Of a stretch of DNA of 64,000 nt, positions 6,936 through 50,912 are shown piece after piece (positions within the stretch are counted from its first letter, which is position 1; every line of letters starts with the position of its first letter). The notes beneath the pieces are model-generated. The model searched no databases, was not told where the DNA came from, and saw only the letters and a list, made by a program, of their open reading frames with translations. The position numbers were made by a program, and so were the translations under genes. The stretch covers positions 174,925,692-174,989,691 of the forward strand of contig CP136061.1 of the NCBI GenBank assembly GCA_032622095.1, written 5' to 3'. This DNA is from Siphonodentalium dalli. Its lineage: Eukaryota; Mollusca; Scaphopoda; Gadilida; Siphonodentaliidae.

Positions 6936-7941
6936 TTAGGCATCATCTCAAAACTACTATCGGGATCCCGAAAACTATTCCGAAAACTCTAACACTATCT
7001 TCTAACTTTCCCAATCGATTCCGATAGAGCGGTTCCGATTTCCGGAAAATATTCCATTATCGCATCTAAATATTCCGATAACATGCTGAGTTCTCAAAAG
7101 TTAATAATTTTGTCCATTGAATTATTTTTGCAAAGTATACATACAGCACACATATCTTACGTTCTATGAAGGACATGACCAAAGGAATAGTTTCATAAAG
7201 GCAGTATCCCTTCAACACTAGCAATAGACTGGTCCAATTTGAACGTAAGAAAAAATTCAAATATATATTTTATAAACATTGAATTGATTACCAAACATGT
7301 GAAATAAATGCCCTAAGATTACTGTAATTACTATATATAGTCTTCAAATAGTTGATAGTCAATCGCAGGTAGCTTTCTTTAAGAACTATTTTGTTCAGCT
7401 GATTTTTCCACCTGATTTGCACTGATTTTTTGGTGCCATCATTATCTGGTAAACAATTCGTGCTGCCAGGATTTGGATTCATCATTCAAGAATAAATTTT
7501 TTCTCAAAACTACGGCCAAGAAATATAATTTCACCCTTTATATTTTTGTATCAATCATACCCAATATAAAAATGGCAAGATATTTCATAAAATGCAGATA
7601 ACGAAATGTGTTGAATCATTTTTTTTTTAAATGGCGCGTCATGCACATGGTTCGCCTTGCCGTCTACTGACACAGGCAATTCAAATAAAACATAAAACTA
7701 GTTTTACATAGTCAATTCGTTAAATTTTCTTTCACATCACAATTTGGCGAATTTGCTAGAGTCTAGCTAAGTGATAATGTGCAGTGAATATGAACTTTAA
7801 TAATCACACAAGAACGAAATAATCAGCGCTGACAAAGATGTTTACTCCTCCGAGAACCTCATGCACCTAATGTTCGAACTTGACCCAGTTATGATCTATA
7901 GATCTCTGCACATTTCCATGTGTCAATCTTGTCCATCATAT
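6936..7941 (-). mobile_element. Truncated TTAA-family element, copy A
   Basis: The left end is ttaggcatcatctcaaaact followed by about 130 bp rich in tatcgg/ccgata. The rest (7080-7940) matches, in reverse complement and in order, three separated segments of the element at 46,483-58,410: 57,735-58,010, then 50,915-51,176, then 46,735-47,070. Copy A therefore shows that element without its two insertions. The match stops near 7940 and the second TATCGG-rich end is missing, so it is truncated. No coding capacity is seen. Confidence 0.75.
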
Positions 7942-11480: not shown

Positions 11481-11804
11481 CAAAGCAGCACCCTTATGAT
11501 GTCATACAGATAAAGCCTCTCGGCGATGAGTCAAGAGGTACAATGGAATCAACTAATAAGTATTATTCCCGGGCAATACAAAATATCTTATGACTTGCAA
11601 TAAATCTCTCCTCATAGTCCACACCCTGGGGCATAACTGGGAAGTGAAGACATAATTTTAGATGCCTCGCAAGGGATGAATTGACGCCGAGGTGATTTCG
11701 AGTGACAAAAATGACGATGTCGGAAATAATAACATATCTCGAACCCGGTGGTCGTAGAATTCGATTTTTCATGGGAAAATGGACAGACTCCACGCTCCGT
11801 ACAA

Positions 11805-12565
11805 ACATTTTGCATTATTGTTCAGCAACCGCTGGGCAGATTTAGCTGATATTTGGTATGGTGATAGAGCAGCATGGGGGAACAGCTACATGCATAGCGC
11901 GGGTTTCGTCCACCCATTTTCACCAGAGTTATGGCCCTTTTTTTACTTAGAAAATTCAATTTTGTCCGTCCATACAAACATTTTGCATTATTGTTCAGCA
12001 ACCGCTGGGCAGATTTAGCTGATATTTGGTATGGTGATAGAGCAGCAAGGGGGAACAGCTACATACATAGTGCGGGTTTCGTCCACCCATTTTCACCAGA
12101 GTTATGGCCCTTTTTTTACTTAGAAAATTCAATTTTTCTTGTGTTTTTTGGGTTTCCAGATGATTGCGTGAGCTTTGGTGGTACGATTGCAAATCCCGTA
12201 TTTTTGTGGATCAGTTTAAAATATGAAAATACATTTCAAGTGCGAATTTGGGTATGATCTGATGATTTTTGCCAGAGTTATGTCCCTTTTTTCAACTTCG
12301 AAATCCGTCCGTACGTCCGTCCATACAAACATTTTGCATTATTGTTCAGCAACCGCTGGGCAGATTTAGCTGATATTTGGTATGGTGATAGAGCAGCATG
12401 GGGGAACAGCTACATGCATGGCACGGGTTTCGTCCACCCATTTTCACCAGAGTTATGGCCCTTTTTTTACTTAGAAAATTCAATTTTGTCCGTCCGTACA
12501 AACATTTTGCATTATTGTTCAGCAACCGCTGGGCAGATTTAGCTGATATTTGGTATGGTGATACC
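11805..12565 (+). repeat. Tandem repeat, about 172-175 bp monomer (acattttgcattattg family)
   Basis: Monomers start at about 11805, 11979, 12329 and 12501, each acattttgcattattgttc, then a ggtatggtgatagagcagc block, then gagttatggccctttttt. GTCCGTC stretches precede them. The shared frame gives look-alike short ORFs, which I do not treat as genes. Confidence 0.8.
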
Positions 12566-12739
12566 GTCCATGCTTAATCTGAATTGCTACGGTCGGGGGC
12601 AAATGCCACGCGACAGCGTACCTCTTGTTGTATTAGGCAATTATCGAAGAGACATAAACGTATTTATTAACAATTTTGCCAGCCTTGGGAAGATTCGTAG
12701 AAGCGTTCTATGCAATGGAAATGCATGCATATTTCCTAT

Positions 12740-13015
12740 GTAACAGTTTAACAGTGTCTAAACGCTCTTTATCAACGACACTGCGGATACGAACGCTCTT
12801 TAAATATCACGCGATTAACCCATGAACTACCCATTGCGGTGGCGGGGGATTGGAGAATGATTGCTCTGACGTTCTCAGAAGCAGTGCGATGACATTCCAT
12901 CTGGGATTTTACCCTTAGATACGAAGTTTGGGGTCAATCCATCCGGCAGTTTTCCCGGCCATAGCTAACAGACAGACAGACAAACAGAAGTCCCAAAATA
13001 TATATTAGATATGCA
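12740..13015 (+). repeat. Dispersed repeat (aacgctctttat ... agtcccaaaatatata), copy 1
   Basis: It matches 29745-30015 with moderate divergence: acgctctttat, cgattaacccat, ttggagaa, gggattttaccyttagatag, gaagtttggt and agtc-caaaatatata occur in the same order. It is repeated at 18012-18287 through the tandem duplication. Family unknown. Confidence 0.65.
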
Positions 13016-13560
13016 TATAATTCCATGACTATTTGCACGATTCTTCGTAATGTCCGTCTTTTTACTATTTATAATGCCGGGGGTCATTCTATATGTCTTG
13101 CATATTATCATATTAACACGTTGGCTGCCAATACGAGTTAACTCGTAGTTAACGGTTCCATGGGGACTGCTACTATGAGTTAAACTCGTAGTGAGTGTTC
13201 ATACCACATAAATAACAACACAAACCACAAGTATTGTTGGTGTATGCGGCAATACATGCCCTATGATCCCATTGATCGATTTTATATGTATAATTACAAT
13301 CCCGAACAAGGGTGGGGTGCAGTTAGAAATGTGCAAATAGACCTTTCCCGGACACATATAGAGGGCTTTCATTGCATAATTTAGTAATCAGTTAGCTCTG
13401 AATTGTTCAGGTTTCATTTGAAGCTATAGGCCTATAACTGATAAAACACCCCATGGTGCAAGCCACTGGAAGGTCCACTAAATACATAAGCTTGGCTATG
13501 TAACATACAATAGAACAACACTTACATGTGTGTTGAGATTAGTTAGAACTCAGCACCCTG

Positions 13561-15855
13561 GCGAAAAATAATGCGATAACGTCGAAAGCGACTGGCCATA
13601 GAAGTGCGATAACGTCGAAACCACAACAGACCAAACATTTCTGTAAAATGTCGAAACTTTCGACAACGCGAAAGACGTGACGTCGAAACATTGATCGATA
13701 TTCGCAAACGACGAAAAGTTAAAACATCGATACGATGTTGTCGCACATTTATTTTTGCCTTCTGCGTAATCAGATGCCAGCTGAATTGTTATTGGCTGAA
13801 TTGTGTGAAGGAAAATAAAGTACAGCCAAAGGCCATACAAACAACTCTATGCGGTTAACACACAAGTACAACGACTTGACAGTTCGACTGTTTTGATAGC
13901 TATGAGTTCCACGAGTCCTAATTAAACAATAGTCAACCCATTCCAAATGTGTGAAGGGGTGACATTTAGCAAAAGGCTATACAAACATATAGGCCTACTG
14001 ACATATAATGACGTATATACCGGTCCCTCACAACTATGTGTGAACTGTGCTACAGTTTTGTAGTTGTTGTTGTTGTTGTGATGTCTTCTCAATTAGTGAA
14101 CAATGGTTTAACTCGTTGGACAAAAACAACACATCTGATATATAATATTCCAAATGAAGCGACTTGATGTCATAATATCAGTTCGATCATGGCTAGAAAC
14201 AGTGATGAAATCGAATAGATCTATCGTTAGTGGACATATACGCAGTTGGGAAAATATTAGACCAGCAGTTTACACAGGTCGACAGTACGAAGAAGTTAGG
14301 GATTTCACAACCCCAGGTATCACACATCTAACAGAAAAAAAGATAAAATCACACAGAAATTTGAAACCAGCTGCACCCACACACAATGGGAGCGACAACC
14401 GTCCTTCCGATATAGAACAAGCCCTCATCACATTGTATCAACGCCAGACATATATAGAGCCATACCCCCTAAGTTCATTGTTTTATAATGGTATATATAT
14501 CATTATCCATGTTTTTATTATTCATTCAATAAAGAATCGAGAAAAACATAACACTCAACTCCTCTGTCAGTCAATGCTACCCACAAGCGAAACTAGGATT
14601 GGCCTGGGAAATTACAGTGCTAAAAATAGCACAACATAACATGTGCAATTCGTGGAAATTCCAAACTATTATATAATATGTTTTGTATTAACTAAACTTT
14701 GTCGCATCTGATCGCTGATATATATTGAATAAAATGTGTAGATTTGAAATAAAAGTCGCCGACGAATTAATCATGATGACGCTGCGTATCCGATATCTAA
14801 CAATGATTTCATACTTATATTGCGAAAATGAAAGCATTGTTTACGACAAAACCACCACCGGGTTTACGGTACTTTCAGAATCCGACGATGCTGTAAGCCC
14901 CCTGATTTGCGTCCACATTAAAATATGTGTCTGGTCTAGAAAGACAGATTGAAACTGTAGAAATTAACTCTACGTGGCATACAGAAAGTATACTATAAAT
15001 TGGGGTTGTGGAATAATTTATTGTCGTCCTCGGTTGTATTCTGTTGTTCATAATAGTTCGCACAATTAAATTGTGACGGTTTACCCAAAATGAAGACAAG
15101 TTACATAATCACACACAAAAAACGTTTTTCGAAATCAAAATTTGCATTGTTTACGGTAACACTGCATCAGTCTTAATGCGACGATGTAGCAATTATTGCA
15201 CGAGATTTTGGAGGGCTTCAACATTGTACTGTAACATTTACTGTAAACCAGTGATACAATATCACTGCTGTAAACCCACCGATTTGTGGCCACATCAAAA
15301 CGTAGGAAATGATTGTATAAATCGGGTCTGGGAATCATTTATTTGGGACTTTAATCTTCTATTAATAATAGTTCATGAACGTTTGAATTGTCCTATATTA
15401 ACCAAATCGGTGATTTCAGTAGATCGGAGAAATTTATAGAATTGTTTTCATATCAGAGAAAACTCCGATTAAATCATTGGAATTCTTATGAGAAAAACTC
15501 CGATCTGAGAAATTTCAGCATGGACACCGACATCTTCCCGTTCGCGACACATCGGTATAAAACTGCGACCATGGAGTATTTATTGAACACAAACTGTCCT
15601 GCCAATCATATCGACACAACAGCAATATTGAGGGAAATAATGCTGCGATCTTGACGAAAACAAAGACTGCGAAAATATGTCGAAGCAAAGCAGCGAACAT
15701 TTGAGCAAAACTGCGATAATTGCGAAAACATCGAACCAAGACGGCGAAAATGACGAAAACGTACAACGTTACGCCGTGCGATAATGACGAAAAAACTCCG
15801 ATAATGTCGAAAAAACAACGCCACATTTTTCACCGTTTTATCGCATTTTTTTCGC
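13561..15855. mobile_element. Non-autonomous DNA transposon with GCGATAA/GACGAAAA end arrays, copy 1
   Basis: The ends are imperfect inverted repeats: left ggcgaaaaataatgcgataa, right (read inward) tgcgaaaaaaatgcgataaa. The first 190 bp and last 200 bp are each packed with about ten short motifs of the form GCGATAA, GTCGAAA, GACGAAAA. Such subterminal arrays are transposase-binding sites in other superfamilies (known), so I infer a cut-and-paste element of about 2.3 kb. The interior has one 161-codon ORF (14154-14639) that resembles nothing I know, followed by AT-rich sequence. No clear target-site duplication was seen. Superfamily unassigned. Confidence 0.55.
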
Positions 15856-16468
15856 ATATCCGAAAGAGGTTTTGACATGCTCCCTTACCTGATTAGGCCG
15901 AAGCTGTAATAGGAAATAGGAAACTAGAAAACAGAAATTAGTTATGTTTCAAACATCGAATATGATAGACATACAATGGTGTATGTGTTGGTATTCAAAA
16001 ACAGACACTAGGCAAAGATAACTACCAGGTATATCGTCACCACAAGCTGCCCAAACCCCAAGTTTATTAAGTCAAATGTGTTCACATATTTCGGCATTTT
16101 ATCAATTCGAAAAAGTAGATAACCCACTTTTCGTGCGGTAAACAATTCTGAGATTTCCAATTTCGGGAACGCAAACCGGAAAGAAATATGGTGCGTATTG
16201 ACGATGTGTATGTTGGTTTAATATAATAGTATTTGAAGTTTTTATGGCTAGCATGTATTGAGGAGGTACATAATACTTATTCAGATACGGCAGAATAAGT
16301 CATTCTAGACTTTCTATGAAGATCACTATATCTTTTCGTTTCGATTGTATTCACGTTCCGTATTTTTATTTGAGTAATTGAACCGGATATTTAGTTCTGT
16401 TTGTTGTTATTAAACATGCTTGTTATGAAACAATATTAGAAACGCAAATATGCTCATCCCATTAAATG

Positions 16469-16774
16469 AGGGGCCTCGGTGGCTCAATCGGTTAGGGGTA
16501 CAACTCCAAGCCGTTTCGCCCTCCAGCGCTGGCGATTAGGGTTCAAATCCACATGTTTCCATCGTGGACTTTGTAACTCGAAATCGTTATCTGGTGGAGT
16601 TACCAGTTACTCGCCGATGGCCGGTGGTTTGCCGCACATGGTTGACAAGTTTATCAGCCATTGAAATCACTGTTAGATTAGTCGCAAGTGTGCGGATTTT
16701 CTCCACCACTAAAACTGGCAATGTCGTGATATGGCCTTAGTGGCTAAAGCGACAATAAACCCCAATCAATCAAT
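16469..16774 (+). mobile_element. tRNA-derived SINE, copy 1, with perfect 14-bp target-site duplication
   Basis: The head is ggggcctcggtggctcaatc: the A box TGGCTCAATCGG is at about 16480-16491 and the B box GGTTCAAATCC at about 16541-16551, with tRNA-like spacing. The body ends in a conserved-looking block with ttctccaccactaaaactgg and a gacaataaacccc tail of caat repeats. That 3' block resembles the Nin core domain of invertebrate SINEs (from memory). CATCCCATTAAATG flanks it exactly at 16455-16468 and 16775-16788. RNA polymerase III would start at the head and a LINE would mobilise it in trans. A 61-codon ORF over it is a by-product. Confidence 0.88.
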
Positions 16775-16944
16775 CATCCCATTAAATGTGACAACAGGTG
16801 ATAAAACATTAGTAGACTGGTCCATCTATAACGTTGAGAAAGATCTTACCCTAGGCCAGCTCAGGAAAAAGCTGTTTATCAGCGAACTGGGGGATGAGGA
16901 CCCCACTGAGAAAATTTGATAATTGGTCATTCTTTATAGTGGAA

Positions 16945-17111
16945 TACATTAGTTTATATCAAAACAATGTTCTCCTTACATTTTCTTAACCTGGGAAGGT
17001 ATAATAACCCATGCTAACAATGGGCATTATCCCCATAACAAAAATAAAAATAAAAGCCTCGCTCCCTCATCGATTCTCAAAAAAAATTGCCTGAGAATCA
17101 AAACCCTTTTT
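16945..17111 (+). repeat. Dispersed repeat ending in A-rich and T-rich runs
   Basis: The stretch with aaaataaaaataaaa, cctcgctccctcat and attgcctgagaatcaaaac matches 46,330-46,478. In both places a T-run at its end was the landing site of another transposon. The duplicate copy is at 22,217-22,383. Confidence 0.6.
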
Positions 17112-17248
17112 AGCTCAACTTTACTTTATTTTGTGTGCGTGTGATGCGTCAACAATTTCCTTTAGCACGGGCTACAGGTCGTACCTTTGGTCGGATCATT
17201 TACTCAGAAATTTGTCATGGCTGTTGAAAAAATTGGAATGTAGATGGG
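17112..17248 (+). mobile_element. 5' end of Helentron-like element, cut by the duplication junction
   Basis: It begins agctcaactttactttattt and runs into the first monomer up to gatgggaac, where the duplication junction replaces the rest. It equals the first 137 bp of the element at 22,384. Confidence 0.85.
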
Positions 17249-18832
17249 AACATTTTGCATTATTGTTCAGCAACCGCTGGGCAGATTTAGCTGATATTTG
17301 GTATGGTGATAGAGCAGCAAGGGGGAACAGCTACATACATAGTGCGGGTTTCGTCCACCCATTTTCACCAGAGTTATGGCCCTTTTTTTACTTAGAAAAT
17401 TCAATTTTTCTTGTGTTTTTTGGGTTTCCAGATGATTGCGTGAGCTTTGGTGGTACGATTGCAAATCCCGTATTTTTGTGGATCAGTTTAAAATATGAAA
17501 ATACATTTCAAGTGCGAATTTGGGTATGATCTGATGATTTTTGCCAGAGTTATGTCCCTTTTTTCAACTTCGAAATCCGTCCGTACGTCCGTCCATACAA
17601 ACATTTTGCATTATTGTTCAGCAACCGCTGGGCAGATTTAGCTGATATTTGGTATGGTGATAGAGCAGCATGGGGGAACAGCTACATGCATGGCACGGGT
17701 TTCGTCCACCCATTTTCACCAGAGTTATGGCCCTTTTTTTACTTAGAAAATTCAATTTTGTCCGTCCGTACAAACATTTTGCATTATTGTTCAGCAACCG
17801 CTGGGCAGATTTAGCTGATATTTGGTATGGTGATACCGTCCATGCTTAATCTGAATTGCTACGGTCGGGGGCAAATGCCACGCGACAGCGTACCTCTTGT
17901 TGTATTAGGCAATTATCGAAGAGACATAAACGTATTTATTAACAATTTTGCCAGCCTTGGGAAGATTCGTAGAAGCGTTCTATGCAATGGAAATGCATGC
18001 ATATTTCCTATGTAACAGTTTAACAGTGTCTAAACGCTCTTTATCAACGACACTGCGGATACGAACGCTCTTTAAATATCACGCGATTAACCCATGAACT
18101 ACCCATTGCGGTGGCGGGGGATTGGAGAATGATTGCTCTGACGTTCTCAGAAGCAGTGCGATGACATTCCATCTGGGATTTTACCCTTAGATACGAAGTT
18201 TGGGGTCAATCCATCCGGCAGTTTTCCCGGCCATAGCTAACAGACAGACAGACAAACAGAAGTCCCAAAATATATATTAGATATGCATATAATTCCATGA
18301 CTATTTGCACGATTCTTCGTAATGTCCGTCTTTTTACTATTTATAATGCCGGGGGTCATTCTATATGTCTTGCATATTATCATATTAACACGTTGGCTGC
18401 CAATACGAGTTAACTCGTAGTTAACGGTTCCATGGGGACTGCTACTATGAGTTAAACTCGTAGTGAGTGTTCATACCACATAAATAACAACACAAACCAC
18501 AAGTATTGTTGGTGTATGCGGCAATACATGCCCTATGATCCCATTGATCGATTTTATATGTATAATTACAATCCCGAACAAGGGTGGGGTGCAGTTAGAA
18601 ATGTGCAAATAGACCTTTCCCGGACACATATAGAGGGCTTTCATTGCATAATTTAGTAATCAGTTAGCTCTGAATTGTTCAGGTTTCATTTGAAGCTATA
18701 GGCCTATAACTGATAAAACACCCCATGGTGCAAGCCACTGGAAGGTCCACTAAATACATAAGCTTGGCTATGTAACATACAATAGAACAACACTTACATG
18801 TGTGTTGAGATTAGTTAGAACTCAGCACCCTG

Positions 18833-21127
18833 GCGAAAAATAATGCGATAACGTCGAAAGCGACTGGCCATAGAAGTGCGATAACGTCGAAACCACAACA
18901 GACCAAACATTTCTGTAAAATGTCGAAACTTTCGACAACGCGAAAGACGTGACGTCGAAACATTGATCGATATTCGCAAACGACGAAAAGTTAAAACATC
19001 GATACGATGTTGTCGCACATTTATTTTTGCCTTCTGCGTAATCAGATGCCAGCTGAATTGTTATTGGCTGAATTGTGTGAAGGAAAATAAAGTACAGCCA
19101 AAGGCCATACAAACAACTCTATGCGGTTAACACACAAGTACAACGACTTGACAGTTCGACTGTTTTGATAGCTATGAGTTCCACGAGTCCTAATTAAACA
19201 ATAGTCAACCCATTCCAAATGTGTGAAGGGGTGACATTTAGCAAAAGGCTATACAAACATATAGGCCTACTGACATATAATGACGTATATACCGGTCCCT
19301 CACAACTATGTGTGAACTGTGCTACAGTTTTGTAGTTGTTGTTGTTGTTGTGATGTCTTCTCAATTAGTGAACAATGGTTTAACTCGTTGGACAAAAACA
19401 ACACATCTGATATATAATATTCCAAATGAAGCGACTTGATGTCATAATATCAGTTCGATCATGGCTAGAAACAGTGATGAAATCGAATAGATCTATCGTT
19501 AGTGGACATATACGCAGTTGGGAAAATATTAGACCAGCAGTTTACACAGGTCGACAGTACGAAGAAGTTAGGGATTTCACAACCCCAGGTATCACACATC
19601 TAACAGAAAAAAAGATAAAATCACACAGAAATTTGAAACCAGCTGCACCCACACACAATGGGAGCGACAACCGTCCTTCCGATATAGAACAAGCCCTCAT
19701 CACATTGTATCAACGCCAGACATATATAGAGCCATACCCCCTAAGTTCATTGTTTTATAATGGTATATATATCATTATCCATGTTTTTATTATTCATTCA
19801 ATAAAGAATCGAGAAAAACATAACACTCAACTCCTCTGTCAGTCAATGCTACCCACAAGCGAAACTAGGATTGGCCTGGGAAATTACAGTGCTAAAAATA
19901 GCACAACATAACATGTGCAATTCGTGGAAATTCCAAACTATTATATAATATGTTTTGTATTAACTAAACTTTGTCGCATCTGATCGCTGATATATATTGA
20001 ATAAAATGTGTAGATTTGAAATAAAAGTCGCCGACGAATTAATCATGATGACGCTGCGCTTCCGATATCTAACAATGATTTCATACTTATATTGCGAAAA
20101 TGAAAGCATTGTTTACGACAAAACCACCACCGGGTTTACGGTACTTTCAGAATCCGACGATGCTGTAAGCCCCCTGATTTGCGTCCACATTAAAATATGT
20201 GTCTGGTCTAGAAAGACAGATTGAAACTGTAGAAATTAACTCTACGTGGCATACAGAAAGTATACTATAAATTGGGGTTGTGGAATAATTTATTGTCGTC
20301 CTCGGTTGTATTCTGTTGTTCATAATAGTTCGCACAATTAAATGGTGACGGTTTACCCAAAATGAAGACAAGTTACATAATCACACACAAAAAACGTTTT
20401 TCGAAATCAAAATTTGCATTGTTTACGGTAACACTGCATCAGTCTTAATGCGACGATGTAGCAATTATTGCACGAGATTTTGGAGGGCTTCAACATTGTA
20501 CTGTAACATTTACTGTAAACCAGTGATACAATATCACTGCTGTAAACCCACCGATTTGTGGCCACATCAAAACGTAGGAAATGATTGTATAAATCGGGTC
20601 TGGGAATCATTTATTTGGGACTTTAATCTTCTATTAATAATAGTTCATGAACGTTTGAATTGTCCTATATTAACCAAATCGGTGATTTCAGTAGATCGGA
20701 GAAATTTATAGAATTGTTTTCATATCAGAGAAAACTCCGATTAAATCATTGGAATTCTTATGAGAAAAACTCCGATCTGAGAAATTTCAGCATGGACACC
20801 GACATCTTCCCGTTCGCGACACATCGGTATAAAACTGCGACCATGGAGTATTTATTGAACACAAACTGTCCTGCCAATCATATCGACACAACAGCAATAT
20901 TGAGGGAAATAATGCTGCGATCTTGACGAAAACAAAGACTGCGAAAATATGTCGAAGCAAAGCAGCGAACATTTGAGCAAAACTGCGATAATTGCGAAAA
21001 CATCGAACCAAGACGGCGAAAATGACGAAAACGTACAACGTTACGCCGTGCGATAATGACGAAAAAACTCCGATAATGTCGAAAAAACAACGCCACATTT
21101 TTCACCGTTTTATCGCATTTTTTTCGC
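18833..21127. mobile_element. Same GCGATAA/GACGAAAA element, duplicated copy
   Basis: Carried by the second copy of the 5,272-bp duplication, not an independent insertion. Confidence 0.55.
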
Positions 21128-21740
21128 ATATCCGAAAGAGGTTTTGACATGCTCCCTTACCTGATTAGGCCGAAGCTGTAATAGGAAATAGGAAACTAGA
21201 AAACAGAAATTAGTTATGTTTCAAACATCGAATATGATAGACATACAATGGTGTATGTGTTGGTATTCAAAAACAGACACTAGGCAAAGATAACTACCAG
21301 GTATATCGTCACCACAAGCTGCCCAAACCCCAAGTTTATTAAGTCAAATGTGTTCACATATTTCGGCATTTTATCAATTCGAAAAAGTAGATAACCCACT
21401 TTTCGTGCGGTAAACAATTCTGAGATTTCCAATTTCGGGAACGCAAACCGGAAAGAAATATGGTGCGTATTGACGATGTGTATGTTGGTTTAATATAATA
21501 GTATTTGAAGTTTTTATGGCTAGCATGTATTGAGGAGGTACATAATACTTATTCAGATACGGCAGAATAAGTCATTCTAGACTTTCTATGAAGATCACTA
21601 TATCTTTTCGTTTCGATTGTATTCACGTTCCGTATTTTTATTTGAGTAATTGAACCGGATATTTAGTTCTGTTTGTTGTTATTAAACATGCTTGTTATGA
21701 AACAATATTAGAAACGCAAATATGCTCATCCCATTAAATG

Positions 21741-22046
21741 AGGGGCCTCGGTGGCTCAATCGGTTAGGGGTACAACTCCAAGCCGTTTCGCCCTCCAGCG
21801 CTGGCGATTAGGGTTCAAATCCACATGTTTCCATCGTGGACTTTGTAACTCGAAATCGTTATCTGGTGGAGTTACCAGTTACTCGCCGATGGCCGGTGGT
21901 TTGCCGCACATGGTTGACAAGTTTATCAGCCATTGAAATCACTGTTAGATTAGTCGCAAGTGTGCGGATTTTCTCCACCACTAAAACTGGCAATGTCGTG
22001 ATATGGCCTTAGTGGCTAAAGCGACAATAAACCCCAATCAATCAAT
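21741..22046 (+). mobile_element. tRNA-derived SINE, duplicated copy
   Basis: Identical to 16469-16774 as far as compared, including both 14-bp flanks (21727-21740 and 22047-22060). It is explained by the tandem duplication rather than by a second retroposition. Confidence 0.88.
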
Positions 22047-22383
22047 CATCCCATTAAATGTGACAACAGGTGATAAAACGTTAGTAGACTGGTCCATCTA
22101 TAACGTTGAGAAAGATCTTACCCTAGGCCAGCTCAGGAAAAAGCTGTTTATCAGCGAACTGGGGGATGAGGACCCCACTGAGAAAATTTGATAATTGGTC
22201 ATTCTTTATAGTGGAATACATTAGTTTATATCAAAACAATGTTCTCCTTACATTTTCTTAACCTGGGAAGGTATAATAACCCATGCTAACAATGGGCATT
22301 ATCCCCATAACAAAAATAAAAATAAAAGCCTCGCTCCCTCATCGATTCTCAAAAAAAATTGCCTGAGAATCAAAACCCTTTTT

Positions 22384-23308
22384 AGCTCAACTTTACTTTA
22401 TTTTGTGTGCGTGTGATGCGTCAACAATTTCCTTTAGCACGGGCTACAGGTCGTACCTTTGGTCGGATCATTTACTCAGAAATTTGTCATGGCTGTTGAA
22501 AAAATTGGAATGTAGATGGGAACAAGTCATTTTGGGGTAATTCGTACAAACAACATGGCCACCAGTGGCCATCTTGGATTTCAAAATTCAATCCATTAGC
22601 ACGGGCGGGGCTACAGGTCGTACATTTGGTCTGATCGTCATTAAATTTGTCATGAATGTTAACATTGACATGTAGATGGGAACGAGTAATTTTGGGGTCA
22701 TTCGGCCAAAAAACATGGCCGCCGGCAGCCATCTTAGATTTACTCATTGCATGACTAAATTCTTTGGCACGGCCTACAGGTCGTACCTTTGGTCGGATCA
22801 TCATAAAATGTGTCATGGATGTTAACAATGACATGTAGATGGGAACGAGTCATTTTGGGGTCATTCGGCCAAAAAATCATGGCCGCCAACAGCCATTTTG
22901 GATTTTACTCTTTGTATGACTAAATCATTTAGCACGGGCTACAGGTCGTACCTTTAGTCTGATCATCATGAAATTTGTCATGGCTCTTGAATTGGAATGT
23001 AGATGGGAACAAGTAATTTTGGGGTCATTCGGCCAAAAATCATGGCCGCCATCTTGGATTTTACTCTTTGCATGACTAAATCCTTTAGCACGGGCTACAG
23101 GTCATAGCTTTAGTCTGATCATCATGAAATTTGTCATGGCTGTTTAAATTGGAATGTAGATGGGTAACGAGTCATTTTGGGGTCATTCGGACAAAAAACA
23201 TGGCTGACAGCGGCCATCTTTGATTTCAAAATCTGTCCATTCATTGCTGATCACACAAATTTAACTTCTTCCCAAAGTTGAGCTACAGTGTCATTGGCAC
23301 TTTCATTT
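22384..23308 (+). mobile_element. Helentron-like non-autonomous element 1 (minisatellite core, about 6 monomers)
   Basis: The 5' end is agctcaacttta and the 3' end aagttgagct followed by the hairpin-like agtgtcattggcactttcatt. The 10-bp ends AGCTCAACTT and AAGTTGAGCT are exact inverted repeats set just inside the termini. Between them lie about 150-160 bp monomers with ggctacaggtcgtacc, catgaaatttgtcatg, gatgggaacgagtcattttg and gccatcttggattt. Subterminal inverted repeats, a 3' hairpin and a minisatellite core are the published design of Helentron-associated elements such as DINE-1 and pearl (from memory). It abuts element 2 head to tail. Confidence 0.75.
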
Positions 23309-24514
23309 AGCTCAACTTTACTTTGTAAAGTTTGAGCTATTGCCATGGCTTTGTTGTCAGGTCGTACCTTTGGACGGATCATTATGAAATTTGTCATAGC
23401 TGTTGACATCAACAGCCATCTTGGATTTCAAAATTCAATCCATTAGCACGGGCTACAGGTCGTACTGTTCGTCTGATCATCATGATATTTGTCATGGATG
23501 TTAATATTGACATGTAGATGGGAACGAGTAATTTTGGGGTCATTCGGCCAAAAAACATGGCTGCCGGCAACCATTGGATTTCAAAATGCAATCCATTAGC
23601 ACGGGCTATAGGTCGTACTGTTTGTCTGAACATCATGAAATTTGACATGGATGTTAACAATGACATGTGGATGGGAACGAGTCATTTTGGGGTCATTCGG
23701 TCAAAAAACATGCCGCCAGCAGCCATCTTTGATTTTAGTCTTTGTATGACTAAATCCTTTAGCACGGGCTACAGGTCGTACCTTCAGTCTGATCATCATG
23801 AAATTTGTCGGCTGTTGAAATTGGAATGTAGATGGGAACGAGTCATTTTAGGGTCATTCGACCAAAAAACATGGACGCCGGCAACCATTTTGAATTTTAC
23901 TCTTTGCATGACTAAATCCTTTGGCACGGGCTACAGGTCGTACCTTTGTTCGGATCATCATAAAATTTGTCATGGATGTTAACAAAGACATGTAGATGGG
24001 AATGAGTCATTTGGGGTCATTTGGCCCAAAAACATGGCCGCCAGCATCCATCTTGGATTTTACTCTTTGTATGACTAAATCCTTTAGCAGGGCTACAGGT
24101 CGTACCCAGACTTGTTTACCCTCCCGATTTTCACGCACTCCCGATCCGGAAACAGAATCTCCCGATTTCAAATGTCAATACCAGAATACAAAAATAATGA
24201 ACAGTGATTAATAGGCTGTCCCTGTGACAACTAACACAGGCGCAAAAATCAATTAGCTAGCGGCTGACCACACGCAGTGAAGCCATGCAGGTGCAATAAA
24301 TCAATTTAGACTAATCCTACAAGCGACACTGGTATTCATGTCTGCTTTGATTCTTTTGTGAATGTGACGAAAGAGTAAGTGGAAACTGAGCTGTATTTGT
24401 CAATATCATAAATGGCGGATTTCCTTACAAGATTATGTGTGACTATATAACGAAACACATTTTTCTTTCGTCATAACAAATCACTTATTTACTACCATTT
24501 ACGTCTATATCTCT

Positions 24515-39610: not shown

Positions 39611-40955
39611 GATAATTATATGGAAGTATCAAACTTCCAATTGGAAGTTTAAAATTTCTAGTTGGTTTTTAAGTTTATATATAAAATAAAATATCAAATG
39701 TTAATAACTTATTCTTTATTTATTGTCGCCCATAAATTCATTTCTATACGTGATGTTTTATTAATTTACCATCGAAGAAAAAATCTCCCTATTTTTATCC
39801 AAATCTCCCTATTTATGAAGGTGAATCTCCCTATTTCTGATTTTCAAAGTAAACAAGTCTGGTCGTACCTTTAGTCTGATCATCATGAAATTTGTCATGG
39901 ATGTTAATATTGACATGTAGATAAGAACTAGTAATTTTGGGGTCGTTCGGCCAGAAAACATGGCCACTGGCAGCCATCTTGGATTTTACTCTTTGCATGA
40001 CTAAATCCTTTCACACAAGCTACAGGTCGTACCTTCTGTCAGATCATCATAAAATTTGTCATGGATGTTAACAATGACATGTAGATGGGAACGAGTCATT
40101 TTTAGGTCATTTTACTCTTTGTATGACTAAATCATTTGGCACGGGCTACAGGTCGTATTAGTACCTTTAGTCGGATCATCTTGAAATTTGTCATGGCTGT
40201 TGACATTGGGACGTAGATAGGAAACGAGTCATTTTAGGGTCATTTGGCCTTAATTTTTAAAACGTGTCCACTGTCAGCCAATTTGGATTTTACTCTTTGC
40301 ATGACTAAATCCTTTGGCACACCCTACAGTCCACTTCCCTCATCCGATCATCTCCAGATTTCATATTAATCTTGATATTGATCTTACTAGATGGAAGCTA
40401 TCAAATGTTTTTGAATTCTATTGGAAAACATAGCCGTCAGCAACCATCTTTGATTTTACTTTATATATATCTCTTCATGTTGATAATCTAGTATTACTCA
40501 CTGTGGAGGATCTGCTCCTCGAATTCTCATTCCGCCCGAGCAAAATTCCGAAAACTCTTCATGTTGATAATCTAGTATTACTTAGACATTTCAACTTTCT
40601 GCATTCCTAATCGCTCCATTGAGTGTAATACATTAAATGATTCCCTTTCCAAGTTGAGCTACAGTGTCATTGACACTTTCATTTTTTTGGCCTTATCAGC
40701 TGTGGTTCTATGTTTATTACCATCTCTTACACTGATATATAGTACTATAGTATAGTAATATCAGATATAGTGCCAGAAGCTGCTGGAAACTGCTGCTAGC
40801 CCTACATCAAGTGTATGATCAAGCAGATACACATGGCTTGTATACCCATGCATGCAAGTTCATTTCTCTGGCAATAGGTGTACAAGTGTGTGTATATAAA
40901 TTAATTTATTGTGTTTTATACAATTTTAGTCAATAAAATTCGGGTCAATTGAAGA

Positions 40956-41504: not shown

Positions 41505-41531
41505 CAAGTTGAGCTACAGTGTCATTGACAA
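41505..41531 (+). mobile_element. Solo 3' end of a Helentron-like element
   Basis: ccaagttgagctacagtgtcattgac is the 3' signature of elements 1 to 4, here without a body, 90 bp upstream of the MDN1 exon at 41,622. Confidence 0.65.
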
Positions 41532-41819: not shown

Positions 41820-41991
41820 GTATTGTACAATATTTTTAAATGAGACAAACTAAATTTCTGCAAAAATTGTTGGTGTTATCTGACAGAACCAGATAGATGC
41901 AATGTTGTAGCTAATGGCATATAAGCTACCCCCAGCAAAAGGTGGCAGCAGGGCGATCCTCGAGGCCTCATGAAGTTGTTTAGGGTTTTTT

Positions 41992-42310
41992 AGCTCAACT
42001 TTACTTTGTAAAGTTTGAGCTATTGCCATGCCTTGGTATCCGTATCCGTGTGTGTATTTGTCAACAATTTCCTTTAGCACGGGCTACAGGTCGTACCTTT
42101 GGTCGGATCATTATGAAATTTGTCATGGCTGTTGATATTGACATGTAGATGGGAACGAGTCATTTTGGGGTCATTCGGCTGCCAGCGGCCATCTTGGATT
42201 TTACTCTTTGCAAAACTAGGCCTTTCCACATTCCTAATCACTCCATTGACTGTAACACATGAAATTATTCCCTTTCCAAGTTGAGCTACAGTGTCATTGA
42301 CACTTTCATT
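41992..42310 (+). mobile_element. Helentron-like element 3, minimal one-monomer form
   Basis: At 319 bp this is the simplest complete copy in the window: agctcaactttactttgtaa hairpin at the 5' end, a short gtgtgtatttgtcaac stretch, one monomer, then aagttgagct and agtgtcattgacactttcatt. It defines the ends used to delimit elements 1, 2 and 4. Confidence 0.85.
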
Positions 42311-46478: not shown

Positions 46479-47072
46479 CTTAAGGGTAATCTCAAAACTA
46501 CTATCGGAATCCCGATAAATATCCCGATAGGATCCCGATAACTCAAAACTATCTTCTAAATTTCCCGATTGATCCCAATAGAGCAGTCGCCATTTCCCGA
46601 AAAATATTCCGATACCGCATCTAAATATTTCGATAACATGCTGATTTCCCGATAACTTTCTGAAAGTAATGTACGTAGCGTATTGCCAATAACTTTCCGA
46701 TAATGAATTGATGGGCATGATTGACGCATCGAAATGTGCAGAGATCAATCAATCATAACTGGGTCAAGTTCGAACATTAGGTGTATGAGGTTCTCGTGGG
46801 GTAAACATTTTTGTCAGCGCTGATTATTTTGTTCTTGTGTGATTACTAAATTTCATATTCACTTCACATTATCACTATGGCTAGACTCTAGCAAATTCGC
46901 CAAATTGTTATGTGAAAATTCAATGAATTGACTACGTAAAAATAGTTTTATGTTTTTTTTTAATTGCCTGTGTCAGTAGGTGGGGCAAACCATGTGCATG
47001 ATGCGCCATTTAAAAAAATAATGATTCAACGCATTTCGTTTTCTGCATTTTAAGAAATATCTTGCCATTTTT

Positions 47073-50000
47073 AGCTCAACTTACTTGTAAGTTTGAGCTA
47101 TTGCCATGGTTTGGCGTCCGTCGTCCGTGTGTGCGTGTGTTCGTGTGTCCGTCAACAATTTCCTTTGGCGCGGGCTACAGGTTGTACCTTTGGTCTGATC
47201 TTCATGAAATTTGTCATGAATGTTGACATTGACATGTAGATGGGAACGAGTCATTTTTGGGTCATTCGGCCAAAAAACATGGCCGCTGGCAGCCATATGG
47301 GAACGAGTCATTTTTGGGTCATTCGGCCAAAAAACATGGCCGCTGGCAGCCATCTTGGATTTCAAGATTCAATCCATTGGCGCGGCCTACAGGTCGTACT
47401 GTTCATCTGATCATCATGAAATTTGTCATTGATGTTAATAATGACATGTAGATGGGAACGAGTGATTTTGGGGTCGTTCGGCCAAAAAACATGGCTGCCA
47501 GTAGCCATCTTGGATTTTACTCTTTGCATGACTAAATCCTTTGGCGCGGGCTACAGGTCGTTGTTTTGGTCGGAAGTTTATGAAATTTGTCATGGATGTT
47601 AACACTGTCATGTAGATGGGAACGAGTGATTTTGGGGTTGTTCGGCCAAAAAACATGGCTGCCAGCAGCCATCTTGGATTTTACTCTTTGCATGACTAAA
47701 TCCTTTGGCGTGGGCTACAGGTTGTACCTTTGGTCTAATCTTTATGAAATTTGTCATGAATGTTGACATTGACATGTAGATGGGAACGAATCAATGTGGG
47801 GTCATTCGGCCAAAAAACATGGCCGGTGGTGGCCATCTTAGATTTCAAAATTCAATCCATTGGCGCGGGCTACAGGTCGTACTGTTCGTCTGATCATCAT
47901 GAAATTTGTCATGGATGTTAATATTGACATGTAGATGGGAACGAGTCATTTTGGGGTTGTTCGGCCAATAAACATGGCCACCAGCAGCCATCTTGGATTT
48001 TACTCTTTGCATGACTAAATCCTTTGGCGCGGGCTACAGGTCGTAGCTTCGATCGGAACATCATGAAATTGGTCATGGATGTTAACAATGACATGTAGAT
48101 GGGAACGAGTGATTTTGGGGTCGTTCGGCCGAAAAACATGGCCACCAGCAGCCATCTTGGATTTTACTCTTTGCATGACTAAATCCTTTGGCCCGGGCTA
48201 CAGGTCGTTGCTTTGGTCTGATCTTTATGAAATTTGTCATAAATGTTGACATTGACATGTAGATGGGAACGAGTCATTTTGGGGTCATTCTGCCAAAAAA
48301 CATGGCCGCTGGCAGCCATCTTGGATTTCAAGATTCAATCCATTGGCGCGGGCTACAGGTCGTACTGTTCGTCTGATCATCATGAAATTTGTCATGGATG
48401 TTAATATTGACATGTAGATGGGAACGAGTCATTTTGGGGTTGTTCGGCCAATAAACATGGCCACCAGCAGCCATCTTGGATTTTACTCTTTGCATGACTA
48501 AATCCTTTGGCGCGGGCTACAGGTCGTAGCTTCGATCGGAACATCATGAAATTTGTCATGGATGTTAACAATGACATGTAGATGGGAACGAGTGATTTTG
48601 GGGTCGTTCGGCCGAAAAACATGGCCGCCAGCAGCCATCTTGGATTTTACTCTTTGCATGACTAAATCCTTTGGCCCGGGCTACAGGTCGTACCTTTGGT
48701 CTGATCTTTATGAAATTTGTCATGAATGTTGACATTGAAATGTAGATGGGAACGAGTCATTTTGGGGTCATTCGGCCTAAAAACATGGCCGCTGGCAGCC
48801 ATCTTGGATTTCAAGATTCAATCCATTGGCGCGGGCTACAGATCGTACTGTTCGCCTGATCATCATGAAATTTGTCATTGATGTTAATAATGACATGTAG
48901 ATGGCAACGAGTGATTTTGGTGTCGTTCGGCCAAAAAACATGGCCGCCAGCAGCCATCTTGGATTTTACTCTTTGCATGACTAAATCCTTTGGCGCGGGC
49001 TACATGTTGTACCTTTGGTCTAATCTTTATGAAATTTGTCATGAATGTTGACATTGACATGTAGATGGGAACGAATCATTGTGGGGTCATTCGGCCAAAA
49101 AACATGGCCGCTGGCGGCCATCTTAGATTTCAAAATTCAATCCATTGGCGCGGGCTACAGGTCGTACTGTTCGTCTGATCATCATGAAATTTGTCATGGA
49201 TGTTAATATTGACATGTGGATGGGAACGAGTCATTTTGGGGTCGTTCGGCCAATAAACATGGCCGCCAGCAGCCATCTTGGATTTTACTCTTTGCATGAC
49301 TAAATCCTTTGGCGCGGGCTACAGGTCGTAGCTTCGATCGGAACATCATGAAATTTGTCATGGATGTTAACAATGACATGTAGATGGGAACGAGTGATTT
49401 TGGAGTTGTTCGGCCGAAAAACATGGCCGCCAGCAGCCATCTTGGATTTTACTCTTTGCATGACTAAATCCTTTGGCCCGGGCTACAGGTCGTACCTTTG
49501 GTCTGATCTTTATGAAATTTGTCATGAATGTTGACATTGACATGTAGATGGGAACGAGTCATTTTGGGGTCATTCGGCCTAAAAACATTGCCGCTGGCAG
49601 CCATCTTGGATTTCAAGATTCAATCCATTGGCGCGGGCTACAGATCGTACTGTTCGCCTGATCATCATGAAATTTGTCATTGATGTTAATAATGACATGT
49701 AGATGGGAACGAGTGATTTTGGTGTCGCTCGGCCAAAAAACATGGCCGCCAGCAGCCATCTTGTATTTTACTCTTTGCATGACTAAATCCTTTGGCGCGG
49801 GCTACAGGTCGTACCTTTGGTCTGATCTTTATGAAATTTGTCATGAATGTTGACATTGACATGTAGATGGGAACGAGTCATTTTGGGGTCATTCGGCCAA
49901 AAAACATGGCCGCTGGCAGCCATCTTGGATTTCAAGATTCAATCTTGGATTTTACTCTTTGCATGACTAAATCCTTTGGCGCGGGCTATAGGTTGCCTTT

Positions 50001-50912
50001 GGTCTAATCTTTATAAAATTTGTCATGAACGTTGACATTGACATGTAGATGGGAACGAATCATTGTCGGGTCATTCGGCCAAAAAACATGGCTGCTGGCG
50101 GCCATCTTGGATTTCAAAATTCAATCCATTGGCGCGGGCTACAGGTCGTACTGTTCGTCTGATCATCATGAAATTTGTCATGAATGATAACAATGACATG
50201 TAGATGGGATCGAGTCGTTATGGGGTCATTTGGTCAAAAAACATGGCCGCCAGCAGCCATCTTGGATTTTACTCTTTGCATGACTAAATCCTTTGGTGCG
50301 GGCTACAGGTCGTAGCTTTGGTCAAATGGTCATGAAATTTGTCATTAATTATAACAATGACATGTAGATGGGAACGAGTCGTTTTGGGGTCATTCGGTCA
50401 AAAAACATTGCCACCAGCATTTTACTTTTTGCATGACTAAATCCTTTGGCGTGGGCTACAGGTCATACCTTTGGTCTGATATTTATTAAATTTGTCATGA
50501 ATGTTGACATTGACATGTAGATGGGAACGAATCATTGTGGGGTCATTCGGCCAAAAAACATGGCTGCCAGCGGCCATCTTGGATTTTAAAATTCAATCCA
50601 TTGGCGCGGTCTACAGGTCGTACTGTTCGTCTGATCATCATGAAATTTGTATGTCGTAGCTTTGGTCAGATCTTCATAAAATTTGTCATGGATGTTAACA
50701 ATTATACGTAGATGGGAACGAGTTCTTTTGGGGTCAATTGGCCAAAAAAAATGGCCACCAGCAGCCATCTTGTATTTTACTCTTTGCATCACTAAATCCT
50801 TTGGCGCATGTTAGACATTTCAATTAGCACCTTTCCTATTCCTCCATTTACTGTCAACCATTAAATTATTCCCCTACCTAAGTTGAGCTACAGTGTCATT
50901 GACACTTTCATT
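47073..50912 (+). mobile_element. Helentron-like element 4 with expanded minisatellite (about two dozen monomers)
   Basis: The 5' end agctcaacttacttgtaagt and a gtccgtcgtccgtgtgtgcg stretch are followed by about 3.5 kb of monomers near 160 bp, then aagttgagct and agtgtcattgacactttcatt. Blocks recur at 483 bp (47,918 versus 48,401) and 802 bp (48,401 versus 49,203), so groups of three and five monomers were copied together. Compared with copy A (complement of 7,545-7,590), the target was ccatttttatattg. The filled site has the same five T and the same atattg, so no target bases were duplicated. Confidence 0.85.

Follow-up and report, generated by a model that had tools for sequence, protein, structure and literature searches.

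A satellite-bearing element in the scaphopod Siphonodentalium dalli, best explained as a non-autonomous Helentron

The DNA studied here, called the window, is a stretch of 64,000 nucleotides from contig CP136061.1 of the Siphonodentalium dalli assembly GCA_032622095.1 (positions 174,925,692 to 174,989,691, forward strand). It holds one large inserted element, several related elements or pieces of them, and an uninterrupted paralogue of the site in which the large element sits. The coordinates are collected in Table 1.

Table 1. Features of the large element, its empty site and its relatives, in window coordinates.
Feature	Position	Strand	Basis
Whole element	47072..50911	+	Empty-site alignment; phase from genome counts and the L038 site
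5' subterminal repeat AGCTCAACTT with its palindrome AAGTTTGAGCT	47073..47099	+	Sequence, DNA fold, genomic matches
AGCTCAACTT itself	47073-47082	+	Sequence
Short CGTC/GTGTGT microsatellite-like segment	47117..47157	+	Sequence; placed like the left-flank microsatellite of oyster HINEs (PMC7492417)
57-bp duplication ahead of the central array	47240-47353	+	Tandem Repeats Finder
Central satellite-like array, 20.8 copies of ~164 bp	47297..50650	+	Tandem Repeats Finder
3' subterminal repeat AAGTTGAGCT, inverse of the 5' AGCTCAACTT	50880..50889	+	Sequence, window count
3' hairpin AGTGTC-ATT-GACACT, then TTCAT	50892..50906	+	Sequence, DNA fold, 33-mer count
Empty site ccatttttatattg in a paralogue without the element	7344..7938	-	Alignment to joined flanks
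5' piece of related element, cut at tandem-duplication junction	17111..17252	+	Window self-comparison
Related element, 924 bp, complete ends	22383..23306	+	Window comparison
Second related element, head-to-tail with the previous one; 3' end approximate	23308..24106	+	Tandem Repeats Finder, window comparison
3' end of another related element	40651..40682	+	Window comparison
Broken 3' end of another copy	41506..41530	+	Window comparison
Short relative of 319 bp with both ends complete and roughly one repeat unit	41991..42309	+	Window comparison

The large element has no sizeable open reading frame, the longest being 95 codons. In the Tandem Repeats Finder analysis its central array also shows higher-order repetition, at 319 and 483 bp. 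The earlier note had described inverted subterminal repeats and a terminal hairpin, and both are indeed present. The subterminal inverted repeats are palindromic and occur at both ends, as AGCTCAACTT and AAGTTGAGCT, together with the inner AAGTTTGAGCT. The 5' end, TAGCTCAACTTACTTGTAAGTTTGAGCTA, is itself a palindrome of the form TAGCTCAACTT-ACTT-GTAAGTTTGAGCTA, with a DNA fold of -7.2 kcal/mol. On the other side, the hairpin folds at -3.8 kcal/mol and lies 5 bases from the element's end. The window has 10 occurrences of the 10-mer AGCTCAACTT, where 0.07 are expected.

It had been claimed that an uninterrupted copy of the target (copy A, 6,936-7,941) is preserved, and that in copy B the element is inserted within the T-run, at 47073-50912, with no base gained or lost. 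The flanks of 47073-50912 were joined and aligned to the reverse complement of 6936-7941. Some 600 bp align through the junction, without a gap at the insertion point. Copy A does carry the intact target, but it lies in the opposite orientation, and its matching part is about 7344-7938. The empty copy reads CTTGCCATTTTT^ATATTGGGTATG and the filled copy CTTGCCATTTTT-element-ATATTGAGTATG. Joining the flanks gives back CCATTTTTATATTG, with a net change of zero bases, and CTTGCCATTTTTATATTG is found at the junction in both the empty copy and the joined flanks. A separate blastn comparison of 300 bp joined across the junction gave 90.7% identity over 301 columns. Within the T-run the cut has no fixed place in this alignment: 47072-50911 and 47073-50912 are indistinguishable, and the net inserted length is 3,840 bp in either phase.

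The earlier note had proposed to align many insertions with empty sites; consistent target-site duplications would have spoken against its reading. The joined flanks of additional insertions were searched in the assembly (2.23 Gb, nine contigs), and seven empty copies were read: two for locus L019, one for L025, two for L016 and two for L038. The L019 insertion lies in a host repeat of which 11 copies span the junction at exactly equal length. The host repeats at L016 and L038 have many spanning copies, that at L025 has one. At the first three loci, empty copy and joined flanks have the same letters across the junction, namely CTTGTT^AAGCAC for L019, CATTTTT^AAAACA for L025 and GTTTTT^TGTTT for L016. 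At L016, differences from the empty copies are confined to a nearby GT run and scattered changes.

The fourth locus, L038, sets the phase. Its empty copies read CCATTATGTTTATAAAAC, and the filled site reads CCATTAT-[TAGCTC...TTTCAT]-GTTTATAAAAC; neither TT nor TG is duplicated. What is inserted is the AGCTC...TTTCA core with two T's, which either flank it or both stand to its left, provided that neither of them is a 1-base duplication. The four further paralogous sites are clean, and with copy B this gives five insertions, and at none of them are 2 or more bases of the target duplicated.

The same insertion is present in another copy of the L019 host repeat (C1:22690404-22692026), where the array counts 7.9 units against 6.0 in L019 and the flanks match at 99-100% identity. 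Judging from these sequences, this looks like a single insertion that was duplicated afterwards, the array changing by about two units. Local duplications that include the element exist elsewhere too: there is a 5.3-kb tandem copy in the window, and L007-L009 are three neighbouring copies that share their flanks. Such copies are what one would see if an ordinary satellite array had been spread by circular DNA or segmental duplication, its common flanks being incidental. However, the element has fixed ends at many differing flanks and has inserted cleanly into unrelated repeats, and we give that explanation almost no weight.

The ends are very numerous. Ninety-six bases around the element's 5' end have at least 39 further genomic matches at 97-99% identity. 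The copies fall into several 3' subfamilies, all of which have the last 33 bases in common. This exact 33-base 3' end, which includes the hairpin, occurs 9,600 times on both strands of the genome, and its reversed control 0 times. With 11,171 exact 3' ends, the family exceeds 10,000 copies.

With this many copies, the target can be read from the bases next to the ends. Of 6,601 exact 5' ends (AGCTCAACTTTACTTTGTAAAGTTTGAGCT), 6,540 have a T immediately before them (99.1%), leaving 61 non-T (0.9%). After TTTCAT, a T follows in 9,600 of the 11,171 exact 3' ends (86%), and 1,571 (14%) have another base; among the first 100 of the non-T matches listed, there are 67 A, 24 G and 9 C. The target is T-rich, and TT is preferred. 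Because a T follows TTTCAT in only 86% of ends, this last T belongs in most cases to the host. The notation that suits the element best is T-AGCTCAACTT...CACTTTCA-T, spanning 47072-50911, and its insertion site is T^N, mostly T^T. The insertion into the T-run stands as the earlier note had it, with its ends moved by one base, the T at 50912 usually belonging to the host.

A TT duplication of 2 bases is rejected, since non-T bases make up 0.9% on the left where about 14% would be expected from the right side, and since L038 duplicates neither TT nor TG. The left count was made on a single 5' subfamily and the right count on all 3' subfamilies, so that different sets of ends are compared, but the difference is wide. 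A 1-base T duplication has the same appearance as a terminal T; with this proviso, the claim that no base was gained or lost holds.

Short inverted repeats near both ends and a high copy number are also what a fold-back or MITE-type cut-and-paste DNA transposon, with AGCTCAACTT and AAGTTGAGCT as its inverted repeats, would be expected to have. In such elements the inverted repeats are terminal and the target duplication is of fixed length. Here the 3' repeat is subterminal, 22 bases inside the end, none of the five insertions duplicates 2 or more bases of its target, and the unequal non-T fractions (0.9% and 14%) exclude one of TT. A cut-and-paste origin is therefore extremely improbable. The earlier note had also named ends that belong to a transposase-encoding element as evidence against its reading; among the copies read there was no such element.

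Elements of this kind have been described before. The HINEs of the Pacific oyster (Cg_HINE) have a 5' subterminal inverted repeat with a complementary inverted repeat, a microsatellite, central repeats of ~165 bp, and a 3' subterminal inverted repeat with a palindrome; they occur as thousands of arrays in T-rich or TT targets without target-site duplication (PMC7492417). By description, the element here resembles them in anatomy, repeat length and target. Its array of 20.8 units is longer than the usual oyster array, for which the mean is about 3.6 units and the longest 29 (PMC7492417). Pearl, DTC84 and MgE of bivalves have a comparable architecture according to the descriptions cited there, and Pearl is described as having, like the element here, central repeats of ~160 bp, in short arrays (PMC7492417). 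HINE-Mo and Helentron-Mo of a predatory mite, and DINE-1 of Drosophila, have in common with it a 3' stem-loop, variable boundary T's, a preference for TT, and paralogous empty sites; palindromic subterminal inverted repeats are found in the mite (PMC4067079).

The structural and insertion features of a HINE are found at this locus: subterminal inverted repeats, a 3' stem-loop, a T-rich or TT target without duplication (the 1-base T aside), and central repeats without coding capacity. We consider it about 90% probable that 47072-50911 is a non-autonomous Helentron (HINE), which would be mobilised through a rolling circle by the Rep/PIF1-helicase of an autonomous Helentron-type element. The Helentron-type rolling-circle origin proposed in the earlier note is well supported by the subterminal repeats, the hairpin, the T or TT target, the five duplication-free sites, the more than 10,000 ends, and the tandem and nested copies.

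Palindromes at both ends of the element would also suit a non-autonomous member of the Helitron2 branch, likewise a rolling-circle group. Helitron2 elements have asymmetrical terminal inverted repeats, palindromes on both ends, and no endonuclease (PMC4067079). Given that the published HINE anatomy is matched item by item, and that the genome has several Helentrons with Rep, helicase and endonuclease, this branch is an improbable source.

As a non-autonomous Helentron, the element would consist of recognition ends and a satellite-like central array, without a sizeable protein. Most likely, a Rep/PIF1-helicase protein encoded elsewhere by an autonomous Helentron-type element would nick at the 5' terminal T, and then unwind and copy the element by a rolling-circle route. 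Copying would end at the 3' hairpin and the TTCA-T end. The copy would then be joined between a T and the next target base, mostly as T^T, without a duplication of 2 bases or more.

All this fits a known type of rolling-circle passenger, which makes the element well supported but ordinary. New here are the phase in which the element is cut, the exclusion of a 2-base duplication, and empty sites for four additional insertions. It is also a case on the scale of a whole genome, where more than 10,000 exact ends, together with natural empty sites, reveal in which phase and into which target a Helentron-type element inserts.

The earlier note had further suggested a search for an autonomous Helentron with the same ends. 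Genes for Rep, helicase and endonuclease are abundant in this genome, but none has these ends in the stretches read. Rep-helicase genes come in two kinds. The top-scoring ones have the motif RGLPH, of the canonical Helitron type, with long open reading frames, and they are abundant. L074 and L075 have RGSPH, which is the Helentron signature (PMC4067079). In L072, L073 and L074, Rep, PIF1 helicase and an endonuclease domain are found in a single open reading frame, where the endonuclease match is weak for L072 and L073. Searches with the C-terminal helicase-endonuclease part gave several related groups. One of these, F3, has more than a dozen near-identical copies with open reading frames of ~2,700 aa.

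The abundance of these RGLPH Helitrons invites the thought that the element derives from a canonical Helitron. Canonical Helitrons have a 5' TC, a 3' CTRR and insert at A^T. They are rolling-circle elements too, and have the 3' hairpin and the absence of target-site duplication in common with the element. However, here the 5' end is TAGCTC, the 3' end is TTTCAT, and the target is T^N. In addition, AGCTCAACTT is absent from the 1.5-kb flanks of the best 30 Helitron_like_N matches, nearly all of them RGLPH. A canonical origin can hardly be credited.

For five Helentron families, ~2.4-4.8 kb past the open reading frame were read without meeting the 3' end with AAGTTGAGCT and hairpin, and most of the families' own ends probably lie beyond. 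In family F1 (L072) the 3' region extends over 3.7 kb and runs into a tandem array of ~117 bp; a further 1.1 kb past this region holds no matching end. This arrangement, noted in the L072 3' region and at G000:C8:82467626-82467995, recalls the design of a HINE. No matching 3' end occurs in ~3.7 kb downstream of L073 and L074. The same goes for the 2.5 kb downstream of the F3 reading frame and the 2.4 kb downstream of that of F5. Variant 3' ends with a base other than C at -2 before them were also looked for, contigs 1 and 2 being covered completely, and among the matches listed none overlaps a Helentron reading frame. The exact 3' end was not found in viral contigs. Among the papers listed in a literature search for the literal end sequences, there were only chance matches in unrelated ones.

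The oyster study likewise failed to connect its HINEs with an autonomous element (PMC7492417), and S. dalli is another animal genome with satellite-like arrays spread by HINEs of which this is true. In the mite and in Drosophila, by contrast, an autonomous partner with common ends was found (PMC4067079), unlike here in the stretches read. There is a small chance that an unrelated Helentron mobilises the family in trans, and that beyond the short ends the family has no sequence in common with any autonomous element of this genome. If so, recognition would need just a small module of subterminal repeat and hairpin, plus a T.

F3 and F5 have in common an apparent splice acceptor (TTTTCTTTTTCAG|ATGCCRAARAA) directly before the start of the reading frame. 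Two HINE 3' ends lie in what appears to be the 5' intron of F3, at 100-175 and about 1285-1372 of L078 (G000:C1:214412700-214414199), and one of these directly precedes the polypyrimidine tract. Ends of the AAGTTGAGCT type upstream of the F3 reading frame are read as older HINE insertions in the intron and do not prove a partnership. Passenger HINE copies may travel inside an autonomous element. The 3' region of F3 contains, at about 175-700 of L080 (G000:C1:214422200-214424699), TTTTT-AGTCGAGTTTTTGAAAAACTCGACT, a GGCGGG microsatellite and then repeated units. This is apparently another HINE family, of which L014 holds a relative.

Copies of the family studied here are at times joined. Stacked 3' ends are found in L017, L021, L031 and L034, and two window copies meet head-to-tail at 23306/23308. 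From their arrangement such copies would fit rolling-circle elements, but nested insertions could also give rise to them. In the 3' part of L031, a long hairpin element (ACAGTAATGCCC...GGGCATTACTGT) is inserted beside the HINE 3' subterminal repeat.

The window itself contains a head-to-tail tandem duplication of 5,276 bp, with 99.9% identity between 11977-17252 and 17249-22524. One of its breakpoints lies within a 173-bp tandem array and the other within a HINE. The truncated HINE 5' end at 17112 is due to this duplication. The 173-bp array, at 11796-12563 and 17249-17835, is unrelated to the ~164-bp array of the large element, and may form the core of another HINE family.
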